Assembly: GCA_003169895.1 (NCBI GenBank)
Contig: PNAE01000007.1
Coordinates: forward strand, 124,312-188,311
DNA: 64,000 nt
Reading direction: 5' to 3'
DNA from: Gemmatimonadota bacterium
Lineage (GTDB): Bacteria; Gemmatimonadota; Gemmatimonadetes; Gemmatimonadales; GWC2-71-9
This document shows, in pieces, positions 16,903-64,000 of the stretch; the first letter of the stretch is position 1; every line of letters starts with the position of its first letter. Below the pieces are notes generated by a model. It saw nothing but the letters and a program-made list of their open reading frames with translations, was not told where the DNA came from and did no database searches. The translations under genes were made by a program, and so were the position numbers.

Positions 16903-17319
16903 CGGTTCGGCCTCAGGCGGTGGCCCCGGCAATCAGCACGTTCACGTCGGCCCTCCGGCGTTGGGAGCGGGCGGTCCAGGGTTCAAGTCCCGGGACCCCG
17001 ACTTGCAGGACAACAACTTACGCAGTTGTGGAGTCAGCTGGTGCGGATCGGAAGTCGAGACACCCGAGTGCTTGCCTCAGGCGACGCAGGCGGAGAATAT
17101 CTGGGTTCCCCATCGGGCGTGGCGTGAACTATGTTGGACTGGCGCGCGTTAGGAGATCGATTCCGGGCGCAACCGCACATCCTGTCACTGTTTGATTCGG
17201 GCGGGTCGAGCGGGTGATAGACTTCGGTCGAACCTGGGCGCGCAAGGGCGTGCGCCGAGGCACGGCCATTGCACTACCATTGCAATCTCAGCGGCAGTCA
17301 CTACCTACAGGAAGAGCCG
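16903..17319. other. Intergenic region with a tRNA T-arm-like hairpin
   Basis: No gene is visible. At 16973-16981 and 16989-16997 a 9-bp stem with one mismatch encloses the loop TTCAAGT, which matches the T-loop of tRNAs. I could not fold the surrounding bases into a full tRNA: there is no matching 5' acceptor strand, anticodon arm or CCA. It may be a chance hairpin or a tRNA 3' fragment. The segment separates divergently transcribed genes and should contain their promoters. Confidence 0.45.
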
Positions 17320-19746
17320 ATGCGTCTCGCCCAAGTTGTGTTTGCCCTTGTCGTTGCAGCTTGCAGTCATGACCAGGAACTACGCGCCACCGGCCTGGTC
17401 ATCACACCTTCGAGTGCGGTGATTGATACCGCGGGATCAGTCCAGCTGCAGGCGGCAGTTTCCTGGTCTGACGGCGCCACGCATCCGGTAGATCTCACGT
17501 TCTCGGCCACTGGCGGCACGATTTCGGCGACCGGACTCTATCAGGCGGGAAAGGCTGCCGGCAACTTTCTGGTGATCGCCCACTGTACCTGCGGTCTGGT
17601 CGATACCGCAGCGATCCGGATCAACGGGCCGCCGGGAGCGCCGTCGTTTGCCAACCTCGCCATCTCCATTTCCGGACTGCCAGTCGGCGTTCTGGCGCAG
17701 GTCAACGTCACCGGGCGGGGCGGGTACACTCGGGCGATAAGTGCCTCGGTCACATTGGACTCCTTGCCACCGGACGAGTATGTGGTCCAGGCCATCGGAA
17801 TCGCGACCGATGCGGGCAGCTATTCCGCGGCCCCCGATACGCAATCGACCAGCCTGGCCGCCGGGGACAACAAGAGCATTCACGTGGCGTACGCGCTCGC
17901 CGCACCGACTGGGCTTCCGCCGCATCCGCGCGTCTGGATGACGCCAGCGCGGGTGACGTTCCTGAAAGCGCAAGCGACCGCCAACACGCCGCGCTGGCAG
18001 AAGGTGAAGGCCGCTGCGGATGCGCAGCTCGTGGTCAACGCGCCGACGACCGCCAGCACGCTGCCCATGCTCTGTCTCGCGTATCTCGGCACCGGGAATG
18101 CGGCCTACGCGCAACGCGCCGGCGTGGTCCTCGTGGCGAATACTGACAGTGCCGCGCAAATCGCGCTCCGCGGCGACGACGCCTACCCGTACCGGACCGC
18201 CCTACCGACCATCAGCGAAGGACTGGACTGGTGCTACAACGGACTCACCGTCGCGCAGCGCCAACGCGCAGCCACCTGGCTCATGGATGCCGCCGATTGG
18301 GTCTGGCCGGAATCGAATCCGGCGCCCCACCGGACCTATGGCGTGACAGATGTGCTGGATAACTACTACTGGGGCTTCATGATGACCGGCCCTGCGGCCC
18401 TCGCCGCCGCCGGCGACGATACCGGACATGGGACGGTCAGCGGCAGCGACCGCGCCGCGTATCACCAGCAACTCTTCCTGACGAAGTGGGCTAACGTCGT
18501 GGTGCCCGCGCTGGCCGGACCGCTCGCCGGTGGCGAGGACGCGGAAGGCACCGGATATGACATCTCGATTCGCATCGCAGAGGTGGTCGACGCCTTCCAG
18601 ACCGCCGGTCTGGGTTTGGCCACCCCGTGGCTCGCGCAAACGCTGCAATGGCATCTCCATTACACCACGCCGGGTGGCAAATACTTTGCACCGCTTGGCG
18701 ATCAGGCGCGGGTGAGCAACGCCCAGATGTATATCTACAACCGCGAAGCCATGCTCATGGCTCTGGCTTCCGCGAATGCTGGCGCCACACTCAATGCCCA
18801 AGCGTACCGCTGGCTGACTATGATCGGCCAGATTCCCTACTCGCTCACCGACGGGAACCTCGCCAACGAGTTGCTCTACTACGATCCGTCGGCGCCGAGC
18901 GCGGCAGACCTCAGTGGCCTGCCGAAGGGCTATCTCTCGCCAGGGGCGGGTGATTTCATCTACCGCCAAAGCTGGACCGACCCCGCTACCACCGTGATGG
19001 TCTTCGAATCCGGGCCGTTGCACGAGTCGCACATGTCGCTCGACGCCAACGGGCTGATGATCTGGAAGGGATCGTTCTGGATCAGTGCGAGTGCGAACAT
19101 CTACTCGCACAGCGGCATCGAGCAGCCGACGCAGAACTACAACAACCTGACCGTGGGCGGCATCGGCCAGATGCACCACGACGGGGCTCGCATCCTCGCG
19201 ACCTCCGTCAGTGACAACCTGGTCGTCGTGCGGGCGCAGGCGGACACCGCCTACTTCTGGCCGCCCGATTACCGGGCGAAATCGTCGGTGGCGCCGTACT
19301 ACGTGCGCACCGTGGCCTACCTGCCGCGGCAGGATGTGTTCGTCATTGTCGATCGCGCGACGGCCGCGGACGCGTCGAGCGTGAAGGTCTGGCGCTGGCA
19401 GATGAAGGATATCCCGCAGATAAGCGGCAATACCTTCCGCTTGCAGAATCCTGCCGGCGACGCCCGGTGCTTCGGCAGCATACTTTCTCCGACCGATGCA
19501 GTGCTCGGAGTCCAGCCCTACACTCTCGAGTCGACACCCGGGCAGGTCACCAGTAACGCCGTCACCGTGACGCTGCCAACCGGACGGGCAACTGATGTCG
19601 TGGTGACGGTGCTTCAGTGCACTAACGCGCTGGCGGCGCCGTTCACGCCTACCGTGACGATGACGACGTCGCAAGCCGACGTCGTCGTGGGTACCACCCA
19701 CGTTGTCGTCCCGCTCGATGAAACGCAAGCGGTTCGCATCGAGTAG
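17320..19746 (+). CDS. Heparinase II/III-like lipoprotein with Ig-like N-domains (copy 1)
   Basis: 808 residues. A lipoprotein signal ends in VAAC (Cys about residue 15). A Big2-like domain follows (about 22-105, with SSAVIDTAGSVQLQAAVSW), then a PEGA-like beta module (about 108-190). Then comes a large alpha/alpha toroid starting near HPRVWMTPAR, and a beta-sheet domain holding GAGDFIYRQSW, MSLDANGLMIWKG and HSGIEQPTQNYNNL, as in heparinase II/III polysaccharide lyases. It probably cleaves an acidic exopolysaccharide at the cell surface. The start at 17320 has AGGAAGAG upstream and gives the signal peptide. A paralogue lies at 47.8 kb; stretches of the two genes are almost identical in DNA. 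Confidence 0.8.
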   Translation: MRLAQVVFALVVAACSHDQELRATGLVITPSSAVIDTAGSVQLQAAVSWSDGATHPVDLTFSATGGTISATGLYQAGKAAGNFLVIAHCTCGLVDTAAIRINGPPGAPSFANLAISISGLPVGVLAQVNVTGRGGYTRAISASVTLDSLPPDEYVVQAIGIATDAGSYSAAPDTQSTSLAAGDNKSIHVAYALAAPTGLPPHPRVWMTPARVTFLKAQATANTPRWQKVKAAADAQLVVNAPTTASTLPMLCLAYLGTGNAAYAQRAGVVLVANTDSAAQIALRGDDAYPYRTALPTISEGLDWCYNGLTVAQRQRAATWLMDAADWVWPESNPAPHRTYGVTDVLDNYYWGFMMTGPAALAAAGDDTGHGTVSGSDRAAYHQQLFLTKWANVVVPALAGPLAGGEDAEGTGYDISIRIAEVVDAFQTAGLGLATPWLAQTLQWHLHYTTPGGKYFAPLGDQARVSNAQMYIYNREAMLMALASANAGATLNAQAYRWLTMIGQIPYSLTDGNLANELLYYDPSAPSAADLSGLPKGYLSPGAGDFIYRQSWTDPATTVMVFESGPLHESHMSLDANGLMIWKGSFWISASANIYSHSGIEQPTQNYNNLTVGGIGQMHHDGARILATSVSDNLVVVRAQADTAYFWPPDYRAKSSVAPYYVRTVAYLPRQDVFVIVDRATAADASSVKVWRWQMKDIPQISGNTFRLQNPAGDARCFGSILSPTDAVLGVQPYTLESTPGQVTSNAVTVTLPTGRATDVVVTVLQCTNALAAPFTPTVTMTTSQADVVVGTTHVVVPLDETQAVRIE

Positions 19747-21913: not shown

Positions 21914-22350
21914 GCCACGCTCCATCAGCAGGGCGGACCCGGGCGGCCGCGCGCACACCGGACGGACCCACCGGGCTCGATTTGATGTGAGTGATTGGGG
22001 CAGCAAGACCCACGCCACCGCGGGCCCGGGGGCAGATGCGAAAGTGACGACTGCGGCACGGCGTCTCCGGCGAGCGTCCCCCGCTGATGGCTGGAGGCCG
22101 TATGGGCAAGCGGTGAGGGTTGCGTCTCAGGGAGGACCCGCTAGGGAGCGGCGGCACGAAGTCGGCGAAAGAGGCCAGATCGCCGCGCCTTCGTGGGCGA
22201 CCAGGTCCGGGAGGGCTAATCTAGCCAAGATTGCAGCGCCAAACGTCAGTCGGATCCAGCGGTTTCAGGCGTAAGCGAATCCCCCCACGCCCGTATGGGG
22301 AGTGGGGGGATCACAGCTACCGTTGGTCTGCAGAACGGCGTCGTTGATCG
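21914..22350. other. Intergenic region upstream of the hydroxylase gene, with a hairpin
   Basis: No gene seen. A perfect 10-bp stem (22279-22288 with 22302-22311, arms ATCCCCCCAC/GTGGGGGGAT) lies about 40 bases beyond the stop of the orphan peptide gene and may be its terminator. Confidence 0.5.
22279..22311 (-). terminator. Hairpin downstream of the orphan peptide gene
   Basis: Perfect 10-bp inverted repeat with a 13-base loop. On the minus strand it follows the stop of the small precursor gene. No T-run follows it, so termination is probable but unproven. Confidence 0.4.
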
Positions 22351-22443
22351 CTACGCAGCCGTAGAAACGACACCCACAACCAACGTCAATTTCGCCAGCG
22401 ACGCTTCCTCAACCAGCCTTGGCGCAACGAATGTCTTCCGCAT
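22351..22443 (-). CDS. Orphan RiPP-like precursor peptide, lasso-leader type
   Basis: 30 residues. Its first 21 residues are nearly the same as those of the four peptides at 51.7-52.2 kb: MRKTF at 1-5, AP at 7-8, Leu10, EEA at 12-14, LTL at 19-21. Phe5-x-x-Pro8-x-Leu10 and Thr20 at position -2 fit the lasso leader pattern recognised by PqqD-like proteins and cut by B2 proteases. The predicted core is VVGVVSTAA. There is a ribosome site, GGAG, eight bases before the ATG. No biosynthetic gene is adjacent; the matching enzymes lie about 30 kb away. Being so short, it would be missed by most gene callers. The function is inferred only from leader similarity. Confidence 0.75.
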   Translation of the reverse strand: MRKTFVAPRLVEEASLAKLTLVVGVVSTAA

Positions 22444-22855
22444 GATCGACTCCGTAATGAGTAAGTGACGGTTCGGTTTGCAACGGTTCGCCCAAGACGG
22501 GATGGGCCGACCGATTCCACGCGAGCAACACGGAATGCAACTTCCGTGCAGCCGAGATATCCGCAATGGGGTTCGGCGTACAGCCACTCCAGCGACAAAG
22601 CGCAACATATTGCGTTATAACGTGTTAGGTTGACCGTCACAGATGGAAATCCACATCGTCCCATCCGCCAACCGTCGGCGCGAGTTCTGGGATGTTGTGG
22701 TTCCGCCGCATCAGGTTGGAGCGTGTATCCCACGGTTCCGCGTGGCCGGGGTGCCATGCCAACTTGCGTGTCGCGACGTCTGGGCTTCACCGGGCCGAGC
22801 CCAGCATGCACGAATTCCAGATTACCTGCTACACTCACGCCGCCACAACCGCGCG
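22444..22855. other. Intergenic region between peptide gene and amidohydrolase gene
   Basis: About 410 bases with no recognisable gene on either strand. It should hold the promoter of the orphan peptide gene; the sequence just before the peptide is less GC-rich than its surroundings. Confidence 0.4.
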
Positions 22856-47787: not shown

Positions 47788-50058
47788 ATGAATTTCCCAA
47801 CACGAACATGCCGCCTGTCGATGACAGATTCATTGACATTATTTCAACCGCTATTCCTGGCGCTGATGGTGGGAGGCTGCAACCGGGAGATGGCCACGGA
47901 CGCCCTGGCCGTTGCGGCAGCGCCAGGCCGGGGTGTCATGACCGTCTCTGTCTCCGGTCTGCCGGCTGATGCTCCGGCACCACTCACCGTCACCGGGCCG
48001 AATGAATATCACCGGGTTTTCAGCAGTTCAATCCGGCTCGACTCCCTGGTTGTCGGCGACTATGTCCTGCACGCTGGCGGCACCACGACGCCGGGCGGGT
48101 CCTACGGCCCCACCGTCGACTCGCAAGCGGTACATATCAGTAGCGGCAGCGCGCGCAACGTGCAGGTGCAATACGTCAAGGTAGCGCGCCCGGCATCCAC
48201 TGGCCTGCCCGCGCACCCGCGGGTCTGGATGACGCCGGCGCGGATCACGCAGCTCAGGACCCAAGTCGCGGCCAACACGATCCGCTGGCAAAAGGTCAAA
48301 GCCGCCGCGGATGCGCAGCTCGTGGTCAACGCGCCGACGACCGCCAGCACGCTGCCCATGCTGTGTCTCGCGTATCTCGGCACCGGGAATGCGGCCTACG
48401 CGCAACGCGCCGGCGTGGTCCTCGTGGCGAATACTGACAGTGCCGCGCAAATCGCGCTCCGCGGCGACGACGCCTACCCGTACCGGACCGCCCTACCGAC
48501 CATCAGCGAAGGACTGGACTGGTGCTACAACGGACTCACGGTCACGACTCGCCAACGCGCAGCCACCTGGCTCATGGATGCGGCTGATTGGGTCTGGCCG
48601 GAATCGAATCCGGCACCCCACACGACCTACGGCCTGACGGACGTCCTGGATAACTACTACTGGGGCTTCATGATGACCGGCCCTGCGGCCCTCGCCGCCG
48701 CCGGCGACGATACCGGACATGGGACGGTCAGTGGCAGCGACCGCGCCGCCTATCACCAGCAGCTCTTCCTGACGAAGTGGGCCAACGTCGTGGTGCCCGC
48801 GCTGGCCGGACCGCTTGCCGGTGGCGCGGACGTGGAAGGCACCGGCTACGACATCTCGATTCGCATCGCAGAGGTGGTCGACGCCTTCCAGACCGCCGGT
48901 CTGGGTTTGACTACCCCGTGGCTCGCGCAAACGCTGCAATGGCATCTCAACTACACGATGCCGGGCGGCAGGTACTTCGCGCCATTGGGTGATCAGGCGC
49001 GGGCGAGCAACGCCCCGCTGTATATCTACAACCGCGAAGCCATGCTGATGACGATGGCGGCAGCCAACGCGGGCAGCACGCTCGACGCGCAGGCCCAATA
49101 CTGGCTCGCGCTGATCGGACAGGCTCCCTATGCGCTTGACGACGGGAACCTCGCCAGCGAACTGCTGTACTACGATCCGTTGGCGCCCAGCGCGCCCGAC
49201 CTCAGTGGTTTGCCGAAGGGCTATCTCTCGCCCGGGGCGGGCGATTTCATCTACCGCCAGAGCTGGACGGATCCCAACGCCACCGTGATGGTCTTCGAGT
49301 CGGGGCCGCTCAGCGAGTCGCACATGTCGCTGGACGCCAATGGGCTGATGATCTGGAAGGGATCGTTCTGGATCAGTGCGAGCGCGAACATCTACTCGCA
49401 CAGCGGCATCGTGCAGACGACGCAGAACTACAACAACCTGACCGTGGGCGGCATCGGACAGATGCACCACAACGGGGCTCGCATCCTCGCGACCTCCGTC
49501 AGTGACAACCTGGTCGTCGTGCAGGCGCAGGCGGACACCGCCTATTTCTGGCCGCCCGATTACCGGGCGATGTGGTCCGTTGCGCCGTATTATCTGCGCA
49601 CCGTGGCCTACCTGCCGGTGCAGGATGCGTTCGTGATCGTCGACCGGGTGACGGCCCGTGATTCGACGCAAGCGAAAGTCTGGCGCTGGCACTCGTTGAA
49701 CCCGGCCACGATACTCGGCAACACGTTCACGCTCGCCAATCCCGCGGGTGACCAGCGATGCGTGGGCAACGTCCTGCTGCCGACCGACGCCGTGCTGGGG
49801 GCCGAGACGATCGCTCTGGGGAGCGGCGGCGCAGTGAGCAGCCACGCGGTCACGGTGACCCTGCCAGTGGGTCGCACGAGCGATGTGGTGGTCACGGTGT
49901 TCCAGTGCAGCGATGTGCTGCCGGCTCCGTGGACCCCGACCGCCGAGATTACCGCCAACCAGGCCATCGTGACGATCGGTATCCATCGCGTCACGGTGCC
50001 GCTTGACGACGCGCAGGCCGTCGGTTTCGAGACGGCCGCCATCATCAGCGATCACTGA
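47788..50058 (+). CDS. Heparinase II/III-like lipoprotein (copy 2)
   Basis: 756 residues. The lipobox GGC lies near residue 31. A single PEGA-like module (about 48-130) leads to HPRVWMTPAR and the same alpha/alpha toroid plus beta-sheet lyase-like domains as the copy at 17.3 kb. The Big2-like domain of copy 1 is absent. C-terminal motifs include GAGDFIYRQSW, MSLDANGLMIWKG and HSGIVQTTQNYNNL. The ATG at 47788 is used; one at 47821 also gives a lipoprotein signal. Probably a surface polysaccharide lyase that trims or remodels the locally made glycan. DNA tracts are nearly identical to copy 1. Confidence 0.8.
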   Translation: MNFPTRTCRLSMTDSLTLFQPLFLALMVGGCNREMATDALAVAAAPGRGVMTVSVSGLPADAPAPLTVTGPNEYHRVFSSSIRLDSLVVGDYVLHAGGTTTPGGSYGPTVDSQAVHISSGSARNVQVQYVKVARPASTGLPAHPRVWMTPARITQLRTQVAANTIRWQKVKAAADAQLVVNAPTTASTLPMLCLAYLGTGNAAYAQRAGVVLVANTDSAAQIALRGDDAYPYRTALPTISEGLDWCYNGLTVTTRQRAATWLMDAADWVWPESNPAPHTTYGLTDVLDNYYWGFMMTGPAALAAAGDDTGHGTVSGSDRAAYHQQLFLTKWANVVVPALAGPLAGGADVEGTGYDISIRIAEVVDAFQTAGLGLTTPWLAQTLQWHLNYTMPGGRYFAPLGDQARASNAPLYIYNREAMLMTMAAANAGSTLDAQAQYWLALIGQAPYALDDGNLASELLYYDPLAPSAPDLSGLPKGYLSPGAGDFIYRQSWTDPNATVMVFESGPLSESHMSLDANGLMIWKGSFWISASANIYSHSGIVQTTQNYNNLTVGGIGQMHHNGARILATSVSDNLVVVQAQADTAYFWPPDYRAMWSVAPYYLRTVAYLPVQDAFVIVDRVTARDSTQAKVWRWHSLNPATILGNTFTLANPAGDQRCVGNVLLPTDAVLGAETIALGSGGAVSSHAVTVTLPVGRTSDVVVTVFQCSDVLPAPWTPTAEITANQAIVTIGIHRVTVPLDDAQAVGFETAAIISDH

Positions 50059-51690: not shown

Positions 51691-51780
51691 ATGCGTAAGA
51701 CCTTCACCGCACCCAAGCTGGTCCACGAAGCGACGCTGGCTTCGCTGACGCTCAACCCCGTGACTTCCCAGACAGTCTGA
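51691..51780 (+). CDS. RiPP-like precursor peptide 1
   Basis: 29 residues, preceded by GAGAGGAG. Leader residues 1-21: MRKTF, then AP at 7-8, Leu10, HEA at 12-14, LTL at 19-21. Phe5-x-x-Pro8-x-Leu10 and Thr20 fit the lasso leader pattern (with Phe for Tyr). The predicted core is NPVTSQTV, with no Asp or Glu, so it could not form a lasso ring. It is the first of four tandem genes. Confidence 0.8.
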   Translation: MRKTFTAPKLVHEATLASLTLNPVTSQTV

Positions 51781-51819
51781 GTCGTCGCGCGGCGAATCGC
51801 AGGCCAGCGGCCGCCACCT

Positions 51820-52015
51820 GCTGCATTGAAAGGAGAAATGGAATGCGTAAGACCTTCACCGCACCCAGGCTGGTCGAGGAAGCGACCCTGACGCGGTTGA
51901 CGCTACAGGCCGTCACCTCGCGCCCCGAATAGTCACCATCCGCTGCATTGAAAGGAGAAGTGGAATGCGTAAGACCTTCACCGCACCAAAGCTGACTGAG
52001 GAAGCGACCCTGACG
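51820..52015. repeat. Tandem duplication containing precursors 2 and 3
   Basis: The block GCTGCATTGAAAGGAGAA (51820-51837), a variable base, and on through the ribosome site and first codons recurs 122 bases later at 51942. Non-coding DNA between the genes is thus duplicated together with them. The two leaders differ at only two residues while the cores differ completely. Confidence 0.75.
51843..51932 (+). CDS. RiPP-like precursor peptide 2
   Basis: 29 residues. AAAGGAG lies 7 bases upstream. The leader is as in peptide 1, with EEA at 12-14 and TRLTL at 17-21. The predicted core is QAVTSRPE. Glu at core position 8 would be the right distance for a lasso ring but it is the last residue, so no threading tail would remain. 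Confidence 0.82.
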   Translation: MRKTFTAPRLVEEATLTRLTLQAVTSRPE

Positions 52016-52057
52016 CGGTTGACGCTGTCGGGCCTCGTGGTCTCCAATACGGACTAA
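51965..52057 (+). CDS. RiPP-like precursor peptide 3
   Basis: 30 residues; AAAGGAG upstream. The leader is nearly the same as peptide 2 (KLT in place of RLV at 9-11). The predicted core is SGLVVSNTD, with Asp at core position 9, the C-terminus. Again no tail is possible. Confidence 0.82.
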   Translation: MRKTFTAPKLTEEATLTRLTLSGLVVSNTD

Positions 52058-52144
52058 CCGCTGATTGGTTGGATTGGTCCCGCGGCTGGCGCGGGGGGTT
52101 CAAACCGTGACCCTCGCCCACCACTCAAGAGAAGGAGGATGTGA

Positions 52145-52237
52145 ATGCGAAAGACGTTCGTGGCACCCAGGCTGGTCGAGGAAGCGACTCTGACACGCTT
52201 GACGTTGCTGCCCCAGACCTCGCGACTCATTACCTAG
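52145..52237 (+). CDS. RiPP-like precursor peptide 4
   Basis: 30 residues, with a strong GAAGGAGGA ribosome site. The leader has Val6 (MRKTF then V), otherwise as in peptide 2. The predicted core is LPQTSRLIT, without an acidic residue. It is the last peptide before a terminator-like hairpin. Confidence 0.82.
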   Translation: MRKTFVAPRLVEEATLTRLTLLPQTSRLIT

Positions 52238-52364: not shown

Positions 52365-53282
52365 ATGACCGTGACCCCTGTCGTCTCGTCCAATGATCCT
52401 GTCCTCGCGGCCACCGTGGGCGAGTGGCTTCGGGAATCCCGCATGCCGCTACCGTTGGGCCTGAAGCTCCGCCTCGATGTGGTCGACACGGTACCGCTGC
52501 TCGACGATCCCCGCGAGGTGTTTGCCCAGGGCGACGTCGACATCCAGGCCGGTGAGCCGCTGGGTTGGGTCCACCTCACCTGGCGTTGCGCCCCGGCCGT
52601 GGCACGGATCGACGAACACCGCCCGGCGGCGTCCATTCAGGTGAGCCGCGAGGCGGTCGAGCAGCTCGACTGGATGCTTCGCAGCTTCCTCCTGGTCACG
52701 TTGATCTTTCTCTGGAAGCGCGACGGTCGCTATCACATGCACGCCGGCACCGCGATCGATTCCCGGGGACGCGGCTGGATGCTGATCGGCAATTCCTGCT
52801 CCGGCAAGTCCACCACGACCGCTCTGCTCGCCGCGCGCGGGTGGCAGGTAAGCACTGACGACATCGCCTTCCTGACCGCCCGCGGTGATCGCGCCGCGGT
52901 GCTCGGTTTCCGCAGTCGCATCGCGCTCCGACCCGGCGGGTATGAGCTGCTGGGCCGGAGCGGCGGGATCGCACTGCCGGCGCGCGGCAAGACCGGCTTC
53001 TGGCCGGAGGAGTTGGGCACCACCTGGGTGCAGGCCGTGGAACCCGACATCGTGGTCTTCACCTCGGTGGGCGCCGACCGCACCACCATGGTGCCGGCCT
53101 CGCCACATGCGGTGATGCAGGAGTTGCTGCAGTGGTCGCTGTGGGTGATGTTCGAACCCACGGCGGCACAGGAACACCTCGACCTGCTGGCCGCTCTCGG
53201 CCGGCAGGCACGGTGCTACCACGCGACGCTCGCCCCTGACCTGTTCACCGCTCCAGGCGCCCTCGAGGACTACTTGCCATGA
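52365..53282 (+). CDS. HprK-like kinase of the peptide cluster
   Basis: 305 residues. Related to the catalytic domain of HPr kinase: P-loop GNSCSGKST at 142-150 and, about 20 residues on, STDDIAFL with an acidic pair as in HprK. There is no bacterial PTS context. In paeninodin-type lasso clusters such kinases phosphorylate a Ser of the precursor peptide. It begins at ATG 52365 (a TTG at 52347 is also in frame), lacks a clear ribosome site, and its stop overlaps the next ATG as ATGA. Substrate assignment to the four peptides is inferred from position and precedent. Confidence 0.8.
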   Translation: MTVTPVVSSNDPVLAATVGEWLRESRMPLPLGLKLRLDVVDTVPLLDDPREVFAQGDVDIQAGEPLGWVHLTWRCAPAVARIDEHRPAASIQVSREAVEQLDWMLRSFLLVTLIFLWKRDGRYHMHAGTAIDSRGRGWMLIGNSCSGKSTTTALLAARGWQVSTDDIAFLTARGDRAAVLGFRSRIALRPGGYELLGRSGGIALPARGKTGFWPEELGTTWVQAVEPDIVVFTSVGADRTTMVPASPHAVMQELLQWSLWVMFEPTAAQEHLDLLAALGRQARCYHATLAPDLFTAPGALEDYLP

Positions 53283-53551
53283 GCGAACCGCGCTATCGAC
53301 GGCACCCCGACCTCCGCCTCACGTCGCTCGAAGGTGAGGGCGTAGTGCTGCACCTCAAGTCGCGCCGGTATTTCAGCGTCAACGAAACCGGCCTGACGCT
53401 GCTCGAGGCATTGAAACAACCACAGACGTTCGCACAGCTGGTGGCGGAAATCCTGACCGAGTTCGACGTCTCGCCGGAGACCGCAGCGGCCACGACGCGG
53501 GAATTCCTCGATCAATGCCTCGCAGCTGCGGTCGTCGAGCAGATGGCATGA
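53279..53551 (+). CDS. PqqD-family RiPP recognition protein (lasso B1-like)
   Basis: 90 residues, a winged-helix RRE. RYRRHPDLRLTSLEGEGVVL begins the strand region and YFSVNETGLTLLEAL starts the helix, with the usual Asn-x-x-G/Leu pattern of PqqD/B1 proteins. It binds leader peptides and hands them to the partner enzyme. It overlaps the kinase stop and the protease start by 4 bp on each side (ATGA both times), so the three are produced together. The F-x-x-P-x-L of the leaders is the likely ligand. Confidence 0.85.
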   Translation: MSEPRYRRHPDLRLTSLEGEGVVLHLKSRRYFSVNETGLTLLEALKQPQTFAQLVAEILTEFDVSPETAAATTREFLDQCLAAAVVEQMA

Positions 53552-53979
53552 TCCGCCGCCTCACTCCAGCCTGGCGGCTTCGCGCAACGCTCGCAGCCAT
53601 GGCGCTCCCGCCGCTGGTGCATCTCATCCCGTTGGATCGAATCATCCGCGGGACTGCCCGCTCGCGGAAGCCGACGGCGTCCGACGATAGCGTCGATGAC
53701 GCGGCCCTTGCCGAGTGGGTGGATCGCCTCCTCACAGCACTGCCGCCCCCGTGGAAACGGACCTGTCTCAAGCGCGCGGTCGTGCTCCATTATCTGGTCC
53801 GTCGAGCGGGACGCCCCGCCGAACTTCGCATCGGCGTACGCCGCGACGAACAGAACGCGCTCACCGCGCATGCCTGGCTGGTGCGCGACGGCGAGCCGTA
53901 CCTTGAGACCGGCGCGGATCACGTCGCCTCGTTTCAGGTATTGACCACCCTTCCCTCCGCCGTCGAGCCGGACCACTGA
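53548..53979 (+). CDS. Transglutaminase-like leader protease (lasso B2-like)
   Basis: 143 residues. The Cys-protease fold of lasso B2 proteins: Cys73 in RTCLKRAVVL, His108 in TAHAWLVRDG, and an acidic residue following (Asp114 or Glu120). It cuts leader peptides after the Thr-x site when guided by the B1 protein. An N-terminal hydrophobic patch (about 13-30) may associate with the membrane. The start at 53548 is set by the ATGA overlap and family length. The next gene seems to start inside its stop codon. Confidence 0.85.
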   Translation: MIRRLTPAWRLRATLAAMALPPLVHLIPLDRIIRGTARSRKPTASDDSVDDAALAEWVDRLLTALPPPWKRTCLKRAVVLHYLVRRAGRPAELRIGVRRDEQNALTAHAWLVRDGEPYLETGADHVASFQVLTTLPSAVEPDH

Positions 53980-55187
53980 GCGCGGCACTCGTCGACCTCC
54001 TGCTTGACACCCTCCGCCTGGGCGGAGCGAACGACGACCTGGCCGATCGCTGGCCGCGGGTCGCCACACGCGGGCTCAACGATCTGATCGCCTACGAAGG
54101 AGCCGCGGTCTGGCTCTTCCGCCGGCTCCGTGCAATCGGCGCGCTGGACCCACTTCCGGCCCAACTCATCCAGCCATTGCGGAAACAGGCGTTCGAGGCG
54201 GCCGGGCTCCGCTTGGAGGTGGAGGCCGAAGCCGCGACCGCGGTCGGTCTTCTTGCCGGCGCCCGTATCCCCGTCGTGCTCATCAAAGGAATGGCACGAT
54301 GCGTCCTGGCACACCGGTATCCGTACCTCGACGCGCGGGCGACGGATGATGTCGATCTCCTCCTGCCGCACGCGGCCATCGACGACGCGGAGCGCCTGCT
54401 GCGGAACGAGGGTTATGCCCCGGCAGTGCCACCCGAGCGAGTAATTCCCGGTCACCATCACCGTCCGCCGTTTTGCCGGGGCAGGATCACCGTCGAACTG
54501 CACACAAGCAATTCGGTGCATGTTCCGCCCGAAGTCGCATGGGCGCGTGCGAATGCCAATTCGGAAGAGCTGGAGTGGGCGGGTCGCTTTGTCCGGGTGC
54601 CGTCGGTGACCGAACTTGCCTGGTCAGCGATCACTCACGGACTCGAGGACCAGATCGGCGGCTTGCGACTGAAGCGTTTCCTGGAAGTGGCCGCGCTGGC
54701 GAGTGAAGGTGCCCCGGTCGACTGGAACACGCTGCTCGAACGCATCCGGACACACGACGGATTCGGCCCGATAATCCTGCCTAGCCACGGCGTGGCATTG
54801 ACGCGTGGCTGGCTCGATGCGGCAATGGCACTCACCGCTCCCGCCCGGCGACCGGCAGGATTGGAGCGTCCGCGCTTCGATCTTGCGCAGTTGCTTCACT
54901 GGCGGCTCACCGTGCTCGCCTCGCGCCCGCACCTGGGCCTTCAGCTCACCGGCCGCTTGCTGGAAGAGGGCGCCCGCGCGCCGATCGGGTGGCCGGTCGC
55001 GCCGTCGCCGCCGACCGCTTCATCGCTCGGGCGCGTGCGCCGATGGACCGCAGCGCGAGTCAGTCGGTTGGCATTCACGATGTGGCAGCGTCGCCAGCGG
55101 CGGGACGCTACGGGTGGGAATCCAGCGAGACCCGCGTCCGCGTCAGCGGATCCAGCGCTTCTCGCAAGCCATCGCCGACCAGATTGA
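53976..55187 (+). CDS. Nucleotidyltransferase of the peptide cluster
   Basis: 403 residues from the proposed start. Nucleotidyltransferase-fold protein, NTP_transf_5-like: IPVVLIKGMARC, then ATDDVDLLLP with Asp125 and Asp127 as metal ligands, and helical C-terminal parts. Counterparts occur in paeninodin-type lasso clusters, where their role is not settled. No ATG, GTG or TTG opens this frame before a TTG at 54177, yet 53976-54176 reads as good protein (ANDDLADRWPRVATRGLNDL, YEGAAVWLFRRLRA). The best start is CTG at 53976, overlapping the B2 stop as CTGA. It overlaps the convergent permease gene by 80 bp. Confidence 0.75.
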   Translation: MSAALVDLLLDTLRLGGANDDLADRWPRVATRGLNDLIAYEGAAVWLFRRLRAIGALDPLPAQLIQPLRKQAFEAAGLRLEVEAEAATAVGLLAGARIPVVLIKGMARCVLAHRYPYLDARATDDVDLLLPHAAIDDAERLLRNEGYAPAVPPERVIPGHHHRPPFCRGRITVELHTSNSVHVPPEVAWARANANSEELEWAGRFVRVPSVTELAWSAITHGLEDQIGGLRLKRFLEVAALASEGAPVDWNTLLERIRTHDGFGPIILPSHGVALTRGWLDAAMALTAPARRPAGLERPRFDLAQLLHWRLTVLASRPHLGLQLTGRLLEEGARAPIGWPVAPSPPTASSLGRVRRWTAARVSRLAFTMWQRRQRRDATGGNPARPASASADPALLASHRRPD

Positions 55188-62247: not shown

Positions 62248-63225
62248 TTATCGCGCCCGCGGTTGATCCAGCAGCAAGTGCCGCAGCCGGTGCATGTAGG
62301 TATGGTCCTGCAGCAGCCTCGCGCGGGCGGCCTGCCCCAGGCGTTCCGCCTCGGCCGGGTTTTCGATCAGTTCGCGCACCAGCGAACGCAGTTCGGCCGC
62401 GTCGCGGAAGACCATCACCTCGCGGTCCCGCTCGAAGTAGCGCGCGAGGTCGCCGCGATCGTCGACCACCTGTGCCGCGCCGATGGCGGCGAGCTCGAAC
62501 AGCCGCTGATTGCAGGACGCTTCGCGGGGGTCGTTCTCGACCAGCACATGATGAATGTTCACGGCCACGGTCGCGCCGGCGTAGGCCTTGAGGTACTCGT
62601 CCGTGCTGGGCGCCTCTCCCCGGCAGTAATCGCGGAGCGACGTCTTCCGCCAACCAGGTCCCCACACGGCCAGGCCGAACTCGGCCAGCTCCGCCAGGAG
62701 CCGTTCCCGGCGGGGCGTCGCGTGGCCGGCGAACACGACGTTGGCGCGATACTGATCGCGGGTCTTGATGGGCCGGTAGACCGACGGATCGGCGGCGAAC
62801 GCGAGCACGTCCACCGTGCGGCCGAGGCGGTCGGCCATCTCCGCGGCGACGTCTGTCCCGATGGCGTAGATATGATCGAACGGCCGGGCGAGCACGATCG
62901 CTTCGGAAATGCCGCGCAGGTCCTGTGGCAACCAGTTGATCCATCGCGCACGGGCCCGGCCGCGAAGCCGGTCCACGAGCGCCTCATCGATCGCGTCGCT
63001 GCCGTTGACGAGGATCAACTCCGGCTGGACCTCATCGATGCAACGCTCGAGACGCCGGCCGAGGTCACCGGCGCGGAACCGCTCCAGGAAAGACGGCCTG
63101 GCCTTGAGATCGAACACCGACACGGCAGCGCCGAGCCGCTCCAGCGCGCGACGACGCTGCATCGCGTGCGCGTGGTATACATCGTCGAACTCGGCGATGA
63201 ACAGCACCGATCGGCTGGCCGTCAC
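62248..63225 (-). CDS. CgeB-like glycosyltransferase
   Basis: 325 residues. [20 protein letters not shown] starts it, then [69 protein letters not shown] and the tail [14 protein letters not shown]. The last two blocks match the CgeB family C-domain. It starts at GTG, overlapping the upstream ABC gene stop as GTGA, so it is cotranscribed with the exporter. Confidence 0.8.
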
Positions 63226-64000
63226 GTGGTCACCTCGTCCACCGAGAACTGGAGATCGTGCAGGCGCCGGTACAGGCCTCCATGCGCCAGCAGTTGTGCG
63301 TGCGTCCCCGATTCCACCACGCGCCCCTGGTCGAGGACGACGATGCGATCCGCATCGCGCACAGTCGCCAGCCGGTGCGCAATCACCAGGACGGTGCGGT
63401 CGCGGACCAGCCGGTCGATGGCTTCCTGCACCAGGCGCTCCGATTCGGTGTCGAGCGCACTGGTCGCTTCGTCGAGAATCAGGATCGGCGCATCGCGCAA
63501 CAGGGCGCGGGCAATCGCGATGCGCTGGCGCTGCCCCCCCGAGAGGCGGGTTCCCCGCTCGCCGAGCACGGTCTCATAGCGATCCGGGAGGCCAACGATG
63601 AATTCGTGGGCGTTCGCCGCGACCGCTGCCGCCTTGACTTCATCATCGGTGGCCCGCGATCGCCCGTACGCGATGTTGGCGCGAACGGAGTCGTGCAGGA
63701 TGACGGTGTCCTGGCTCACCACCGCGATCAGGCGCCGGAGCGAGGTTCGCGAGAGTGCCGGCAACGGGACACCGTCCAGCCGGACCGTCCCGCTCTGCGG
63801 GTCATGGAAGCGCGGGATCAACTCGAGGAGCGTGGTTTTTCCCGCACCGCTGGGCCCGACCAGCGCCACGATTTCACCCTTGCGCGCCGTCAGAGACACG
63901 TCATGCAGCACCGGTATCGCCGGGTCGTAGCCGAACGTGACGTGATCGAGCGCGATATCATGCACGAACGTCGCGACGCGCGCGCCCGGCGTGTCGGTTT
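63222..64000 (-). CDS. ABC exporter, ATP-binding part (gene runs off the window)
   Basis: 259 residues visible. MsbA-type nucleotide-binding domain: [20 protein letters not shown], Walker [10 protein letters not shown], signature [16 protein letters not shown], Walker [12 protein letters not shown], and H-loop [11 protein letters not shown]. The frame stays open upstream to base 64000 (PGARVATF is the linker), so the transmembrane half lies outside. It probably moves a lipid-linked sugar or lipid A-like substrate. Partial by window edge, not by mutation. Confidence 0.88.

Follow-up and report, generated by a model that had tools for sequence, protein, structure and literature searches.

We found that a short gene on the minus strand of the genome of an uncultured Gemmatimonadales bacterium is likely to be a functional precursor gene of an LPP-like linear phosphopeptide pathway, with a product that would be matured in trans by enzymes encoded at 52.3-55.2 kb of the window. 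The window is the whole stretch of DNA that was analyzed, 64,000 nucleotides long, and corresponds to C8:124312-188311 of this 3.42-Mb, 98%-complete genome. Judged from sequence, one enzyme set, resembling a cyclase-less cousin of the lasso pathway, probably trims and phosphorylates this peptide as well as its seven relatives in the genome. The lone gene, the hairpin that follows it and the four clustered precursor genes are listed here.

22351 to 22443, minus strand: lone precursor peptide with leader MRKTFVAPRLVEEASLAKLTL and core VVGVVSTAA (ORF, ribosome-binding site, homology, leader constraint)
22278 to 22312, minus strand: strong hairpin (fold z = -4.9) immediately 3' of the lone peptide gene, without a T-run
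51691 to 51780, plus strand: precursor 1, MRKTFTAPKLVHEATLASLTL-NPVTSQTV (start corrected to 51691)
51843 to 51932, plus strand: precursor 2, MRKTFTAPRLVEEATLTRLTL-QAVTSRPE
51965 to 52057, plus strand: precursor 3, MRKTFTAPKLTEEATLTRLTL-SGLVVSNTD
52145 to 52237, plus strand: precursor 4, the closest paralogue of the lone peptide, MRKTFVAPRLVEEATLTRLTL-LPQTSRLIT

The lone ORF occupies exactly its interval, stop codon included; it is intact, has 30 codons and encodes MRKTFVAPRLVEEASLAKLTLVVGVVSTAA. A Shine-Dalgarno-like CGGAG is present 5' of the ATG (TTACGGAGTCGATC-ATG). The frame stays open further 5' as an 85-aa ORF, and we set the start at the methionine of MRK rather than at the start of the longer ORF because the homologues begin there. 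The leader is identical to that of precursor 4 at 18 of 21 residues (the changes are T15S, T17A, and R18K), and a search of the genome with the lone peptide as query returned the four 52-kb peptides at E = 3.3e-6 to 1.8e-4. Cleavage is predicted after L21, with T20 as the penultimate residue. With a GRAVY score of 2.06, the core is the most hydrophobic by a wide margin; the seven other family cores score between -1.21 and 0.28. The neighboring genes, encoding a fatty-acid-hydroxylase-family protein downstream and a TRZ/ATZ-type amidohydrolase upstream at 22.9 kb, are both outside the pathway, and the pathway enzymes are 30 kb off. The original prediction of a fifth family member here, with its own ribosome site, no enzyme gene nearby, and a more hydrophobic core than the others, thus agrees with what we found. 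A tie between the lone peptide and the amidohydrolase at 22.9 kb was rejected since this protein is unlike the Xaa-Pro-dipeptidase-like amidohydrolases found at three distant peptides. A perfect palindrome, CGTTATAACG, lies at 22613-22622, about 170 nt 5' of the lone gene, and is the sole copy in the window.

The genome search yielded eight family peptides, and no more, at four places: the lone one, the four at 51691-52237, and three approximately 1.3 Mb away (C8:1447780, C8:1447966, and C8:1480662). The prediction that the family is spread over the genome was therefore correct. The lone peptide has the same type of leader as the 52-kb peptides. The three distant peptides differ somewhat in their leader, F[VI]APxIREEATLSQLTL, and have longer polar cores, and each of their loci has a gene for a lipoprotein-like amidohydrolase directly downstream, within about 260 nt. 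The two amidohydrolases are 85% identical, at least one has a lipoprotein-like N terminus when read by eye, and among NCBIfam models Xaa-Pro dipeptidase comes nearest, with a score below cut-off. The description of the outlying peptides as loose substrates fits the lone peptide, which has no pathway gene near it, but fits less well the other three of the four outliers. The distant loci (C8:1446.5-1448.0 kb, L013:6493-8047, and C8:1480.7-1482.0 kb, L014:6660-8007) are paralogous and 33 kb apart, each with one or two precursors followed by the amidohydrolase. In both, the sequence CGCCACTCTTGCGC occurs in the promoter region, about 67 nt before the first peptide, and only these two loci share an upstream 10-mer. 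A suspected transposase-like remnant beside the distant pair had no Pfam match.

We compared the leader of the lone gene with that of precursor 4 and counted 8.5 changes over 17 synonymous sites versus 4.5 over 43 non-synonymous sites (pS/pN 4.8, Fisher p about 0.002, from only 21 codons, which is few). This excess of synonymous changes indicates that the lone copy evolved under constraint and that the gene is more than a chance likeness or an already decayed copy. The original prediction had offered as its alternative a dead duplicate, that is, a stray precursor copy that is no longer expressed, and the leader constraint argues against this, as do the intact ORF, the ribosome site, the conserved Ser kept in the core, and the occurrence of an outlying copy in a second genome, G011. 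The features that speak for a dead duplicate are a core unlike the others and a lack of conserved synteny in the genus, of shared flanking DNA, and of a recognizable promoter. No counterpart of the lone locus was found in the genus, where the neighboring fatty-acid-hydroxylase gene is absent or distant, and a simple scan, a weak test in this phylum, found no sigma-70-like promoter at the gene. A promoter common to the lone and cluster genes was rejected since they share no 10-mer in the 420 nt upstream. Taken together, we regard a dead duplicate as unlikely.

The hairpin at 22278-22312 was not called by an intrinsic-terminator scan; it is possibly a terminator or an RNA stabilizer. Its position directly 3' of the gene, the hydrophobic nine-residue core, and a leader more conserved than the core would also suit a real peptide that acts without the enzymes, either as a leader-like decoy or regulator occupying the RRE or as a small regulatory ORF. 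We give such a role little weight, given that the core Ser is kept, that the core varies as in ordinary precursors, and that the sibling outliers carry longer polar cores.

Downstream of the four clustered peptides are four genes predicted to encode the enzymes of the pathway.

52365 to 53282, plus strand: HprK-like kinase with P-loop GNSCSGKS, DD motif, and His124/126; weak family matches; sole copy in the genome
53279 to 53551, plus strand: B1, a PqqD-type RiPP recognition element (RRE); PF05402 at 7e-15; NF033536 at 3e-10, below cut-off; PDB TbiB1, 9x90
53548 to 53979, plus strand: B2 leader peptidase, transglutaminase-like; NF033537 at 66.5 bits versus a cut-off of 33; PF13471 at 8.5e-19
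53976 to 55187, plus strand: NTP_transf_5 nucleotidyltransferase; PF14907 at 2e-23; frame open from 53931

The kinase has His, GxxxxGKS, and Asp-Asp motifs that are invariant in 11 homologues, and its structure model (pLDDT 90.8) matches PEPCK and HPr kinase structures, which is the expected P-loop fold. Its best NCBIfam match, around the P-loop region, is TIGR04352 (HprK-related kinase A), a likeness to HPr-rel-A systems; however, at 24 bits versus a cut-off of 200 the kinase is not a member. In the B2 alignment Cys84 and His119 (numbered in the 53515 reading frame) are invariant and correspond to the Cys and His of lasso leader peptidases; a PDB sequence search with this alignment gave no match. 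From the B1 alignment, row L081 was left out of our conclusions because it is in the wrong frame. B2 overlaps B1 by ATGA, and the nucleotidyltransferase probably starts at the CTG at 53976, which overlaps the TGA stop of B2 (CTGA rather than the usual ATGA).

The genome contains one match to B2 and one to the kinase; if this machinery processes the outlying peptides, it must therefore do so in trans. Processing in trans by one enzyme set, as originally proposed, is thus strongly implied on genomic grounds. It is also conceivable that some other peptidase or RRE that escaped detection matures the outliers, and the leader type and amidohydrolase partner genes of the three distant peptides would be in keeping with this. 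We think it improbable: B2 and the kinase are single, the lone leader is of the 52-kb type, and both genomes with orphan precursors are among the 13 that carry the enzyme set.

Several observations separate the pathway from lasso peptide synthesis. The 52-kb set has two lasso features, the B1 RRE and the B2 leader peptidase. No lasso macrolactam cyclase (protein C) was found in the genome: besides short, partial matches, the search gave a single full-length Asn_synthase protein, which is a normal AsnB asparagine synthase. It scores 395 bits against TIGR01536, over the cut-off, and 169 bits against the lasso-cyclase model, for which the cut-off is 525. Likewise, there was no cyclase among the genes of any cyclase-less cluster examined.

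The cores led to the same conclusion. Their limits are based on a presumed lasso-like cut after LT-x. The eight cores of this genome are 8-15 residues long and those of relatives are as short as 4; across the 22 cores compared, lengths range from 4 to 27 residues (the G024 core, which has a long tail, was truncated before counting). A Ser is present within residues 1-6 in each of the 22, often as [VIT]S[G/x], at a distance from the predicted cut that varies from 1 to 6. The first residue is unconserved and Asp or Glu is usually missing at positions 7-9, so ring acceptors are mostly absent; neither the lone core nor, consistently, the 22 cores have a threadable length, a small or Gly first residue, and Asp or Glu at 7-9. 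A conserved Ser without ring acceptors is in keeping with a kinase substrate and rules out a lasso peptide, an identity we rejected because the cyclase is absent and the cores are short. A lasso precursor served by a cyclase in trans, for which one could cite the lasso-type B1 and B2 and the true, cyclase-bearing lasso clusters of related genomes, is thereby largely refuted and highly improbable.

We then compared related genomes using 27 regions of the family, the majority surrounding B2 matches. These are of three kinds: clusters with a cyclase, kinase-B1-B2-nucleotidyltransferase clusters without one, and a third type with B1, B2, and a kinase. The nucleotidyltransferase was not found in G122 and G125, two genomes of another family. 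B2 proteins encoded in cyclase-less clusters group together in a single clade (support 99/98), separate from cyclase-adjacent B2s. A strong match to the cyclase-less kinase occurs in 13 of the 288 Gemmatimonadales genomes; when 395 genomes were sampled from the phylum, matches with E of 1e-30 or lower were confined to this order, and a kinase scan of genome contigs found close relatives only in Gemmatimonadota metagenome-assembled genomes. Precursor peptides, with leaders that read F[VTI]xPx[LI]xEEAxLxxLT, are present in 12 of the 13 kinase-positive genomes versus one weak, different match in the other 275 (Fisher p 3e-19, a significance that is overstated as genomes are treated as independent). 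In the thirteenth the kinase starts at a contig end. The occurrence of related peptides in 11 further kinase-carrying genomes, together with the G011 orphan, runs counter to the proposal that a dead duplicate would lack further copies in related genomes. Since most peptides adjoin the kinase, this co-occurrence is chiefly evidence that the two go together. The informative part of the comparison is the orphan precursors, which lie away from any detected enzyme in two genomes that carry the enzyme set, G000 and G011 (contig C133); the latter is the weaker case since its orphan contig is only 12.7 kb.

Based on these results, we propose the following route. The RRE B1 would bind the leader at FVAPRL, a form of the lasso/LPP [Y/W]xxPx[L/V/I/F/A] motif with F replacing Y/W. 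The HprK-like kinase would phosphorylate the conserved core Ser, for which Ser6 of VVGVVSTAA is the candidate phospho-Ser in the lone peptide, possibly several times; B2 would cut after the LT-L leader end; and the nucleotidyltransferase would decorate the phosphoserine with a nucleotidyl or hexosyl group. No macrolactam would be formed, and the scattered copies, if expressed, would widen the range of core sequences made with one enzyme set.

The nearest known system is LPP of Bacillota, in which the kinase acts on core Ser3, there is no cyclase, and clusters lie in capsule loci (PMC13381572, Nat Commun 2026). Both systems have a discrete RRE, an HprK-like kinase, an NTP transferase, and no cyclase; several precursors per cluster with a conserved leader, a variable C terminus, and a Ser close to the leader cut; and clusters in or beside polysaccharide loci. 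By contrast, LPP uses an SpI (SipW-like) leader peptidase, whereas here a lasso-type B2 lies beside B1 and we saw nothing SpI-like among the genes of the clusters. The LPP leader reads YxxPxVLxHQxIxFETxxS rather than FxxPx[LI] with an LT-L end, its precursors are 35-200 aa long, whereas most of those found here have 26-40 aa and cores can be as short as 4 aa, and its Ser3, like that of Bsf, is fixed rather than at positions 1-6. The system described here was found only in Gemmatimonadales, with precursors also outside the cluster. The phosphorylated lasso peptides paeninodin, pseudomycoidin, and Bsf (PMC9266682, PMC10368454) also have B1, B2, an HprK-like kinase, and Thr (in Bsf, Ile) at leader position -2. 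In pseudomycoidin a nucleotidyltransferase also acts on phospho-Ser. Published parallels to the proposed steps are BsfK, which phosphorylates Ser3, aided by B1 (PMC10368454), and PsmN, which hexosylates phospho-Ser (PMC9266682). Unlike these, the clusters studied here have no cyclase, no consistent ring acceptor, and cores too short to thread. Precedent for dispersed precursors exists in the prochlorosins (ProcM/ProcA), where many genome-scattered precursors are served by one promiscuous enzyme set (PMC10783134), although with lanthionine chemistry, an unrelated leader and enzymes, and far more substrates. What appears new, from the gene content, is a cyclase-less kinase-B1-B2-nucleotidyltransferase pathway in Gemmatimonadales with very short cores.

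The 52-kb enzyme cluster lies among polysaccharide genes (an ABC-2 transporter, UDP-GlcNAc 2-epimerase, and glycosyltransferases), and the clusters of G011 and G024 likewise have genes for glycans or ABC export next to them. The most likely role is one tied to cell-surface polysaccharide, given that several clusters are located within or adjacent to loci of this kind. LPP clusters include an MsbA-like exporter. No dedicated exporter adjoins the enzymes in the source genome; part of an ABC ATPase at 63225-63998, 8 kb from the nucleotidyltransferase, runs off the window, and in G011 an MsbA-like exporter directly follows the nucleotidyltransferase. The MsbA-like ABC gene in the region of the G011 orphan and the ABC gene at the window end share 71% identity. 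More tentatively, and with rather less confidence than in the pathway itself, we suggest a separate Gemmatimonadales RiPP class in which B1/B2, kinase, and nucleotidyltransferase make linear phospho-Ser peptides of 4-15 aa bearing a nucleotidyl or sugar group, from scattered precursors, for cell-surface glycan assembly; it would differ from LPP in peptidase, leader code, and product size and would have converged independently. A linear phosphopeptide pathway here would extend these newly described RiPPs beyond Bacillota and suggests that a B2 peptidase can work without a cyclase. One enzyme set with eight substrates at four places offers a small natural set for testing how one RRE would serve precursors in trans, and very short cores should make the kinase and nucleotidyltransferase chemistry easier to study.

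Other features were observed in the window and in related genomes. Two closely similar large proteins of 825 and 756 aa (17269-19746 and 47788-50058), with no Pfam match at 1e-5, are encoded 30 kb apart, one near the lone peptide and the other just before the four-peptide cluster. In G006:C193 (L075:6303-8553) two precursors come first, then a copper amine oxidase (PF01179, 1e-114) predicted to be a lipoprotein, and then kinase-B1-B2-nucleotidyltransferase; this oxidase and the distant-locus amidohydrolases may be tailoring or downstream enzymes. The shortest predicted core seen in the family, STII, with four residues, belongs to a G122:C63 precursor (L161:9076, minus strand). A G024:C46 precursor (L078:1858-2060) has a long His/Gly-rich tail (HSGGAGHGDGGDLHGHGHGHELGHGHGHD...), the composition of which is suggestive of metal binding. 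A third, lasso-like precursor type (WVxPxL...LTxLTL) occurs in the family and order at L088:13556 and L164:7135, both on the minus strand; the former is about 6 kb from B1-B2-kinase genes and the latter adjoins a kinase-like gene.
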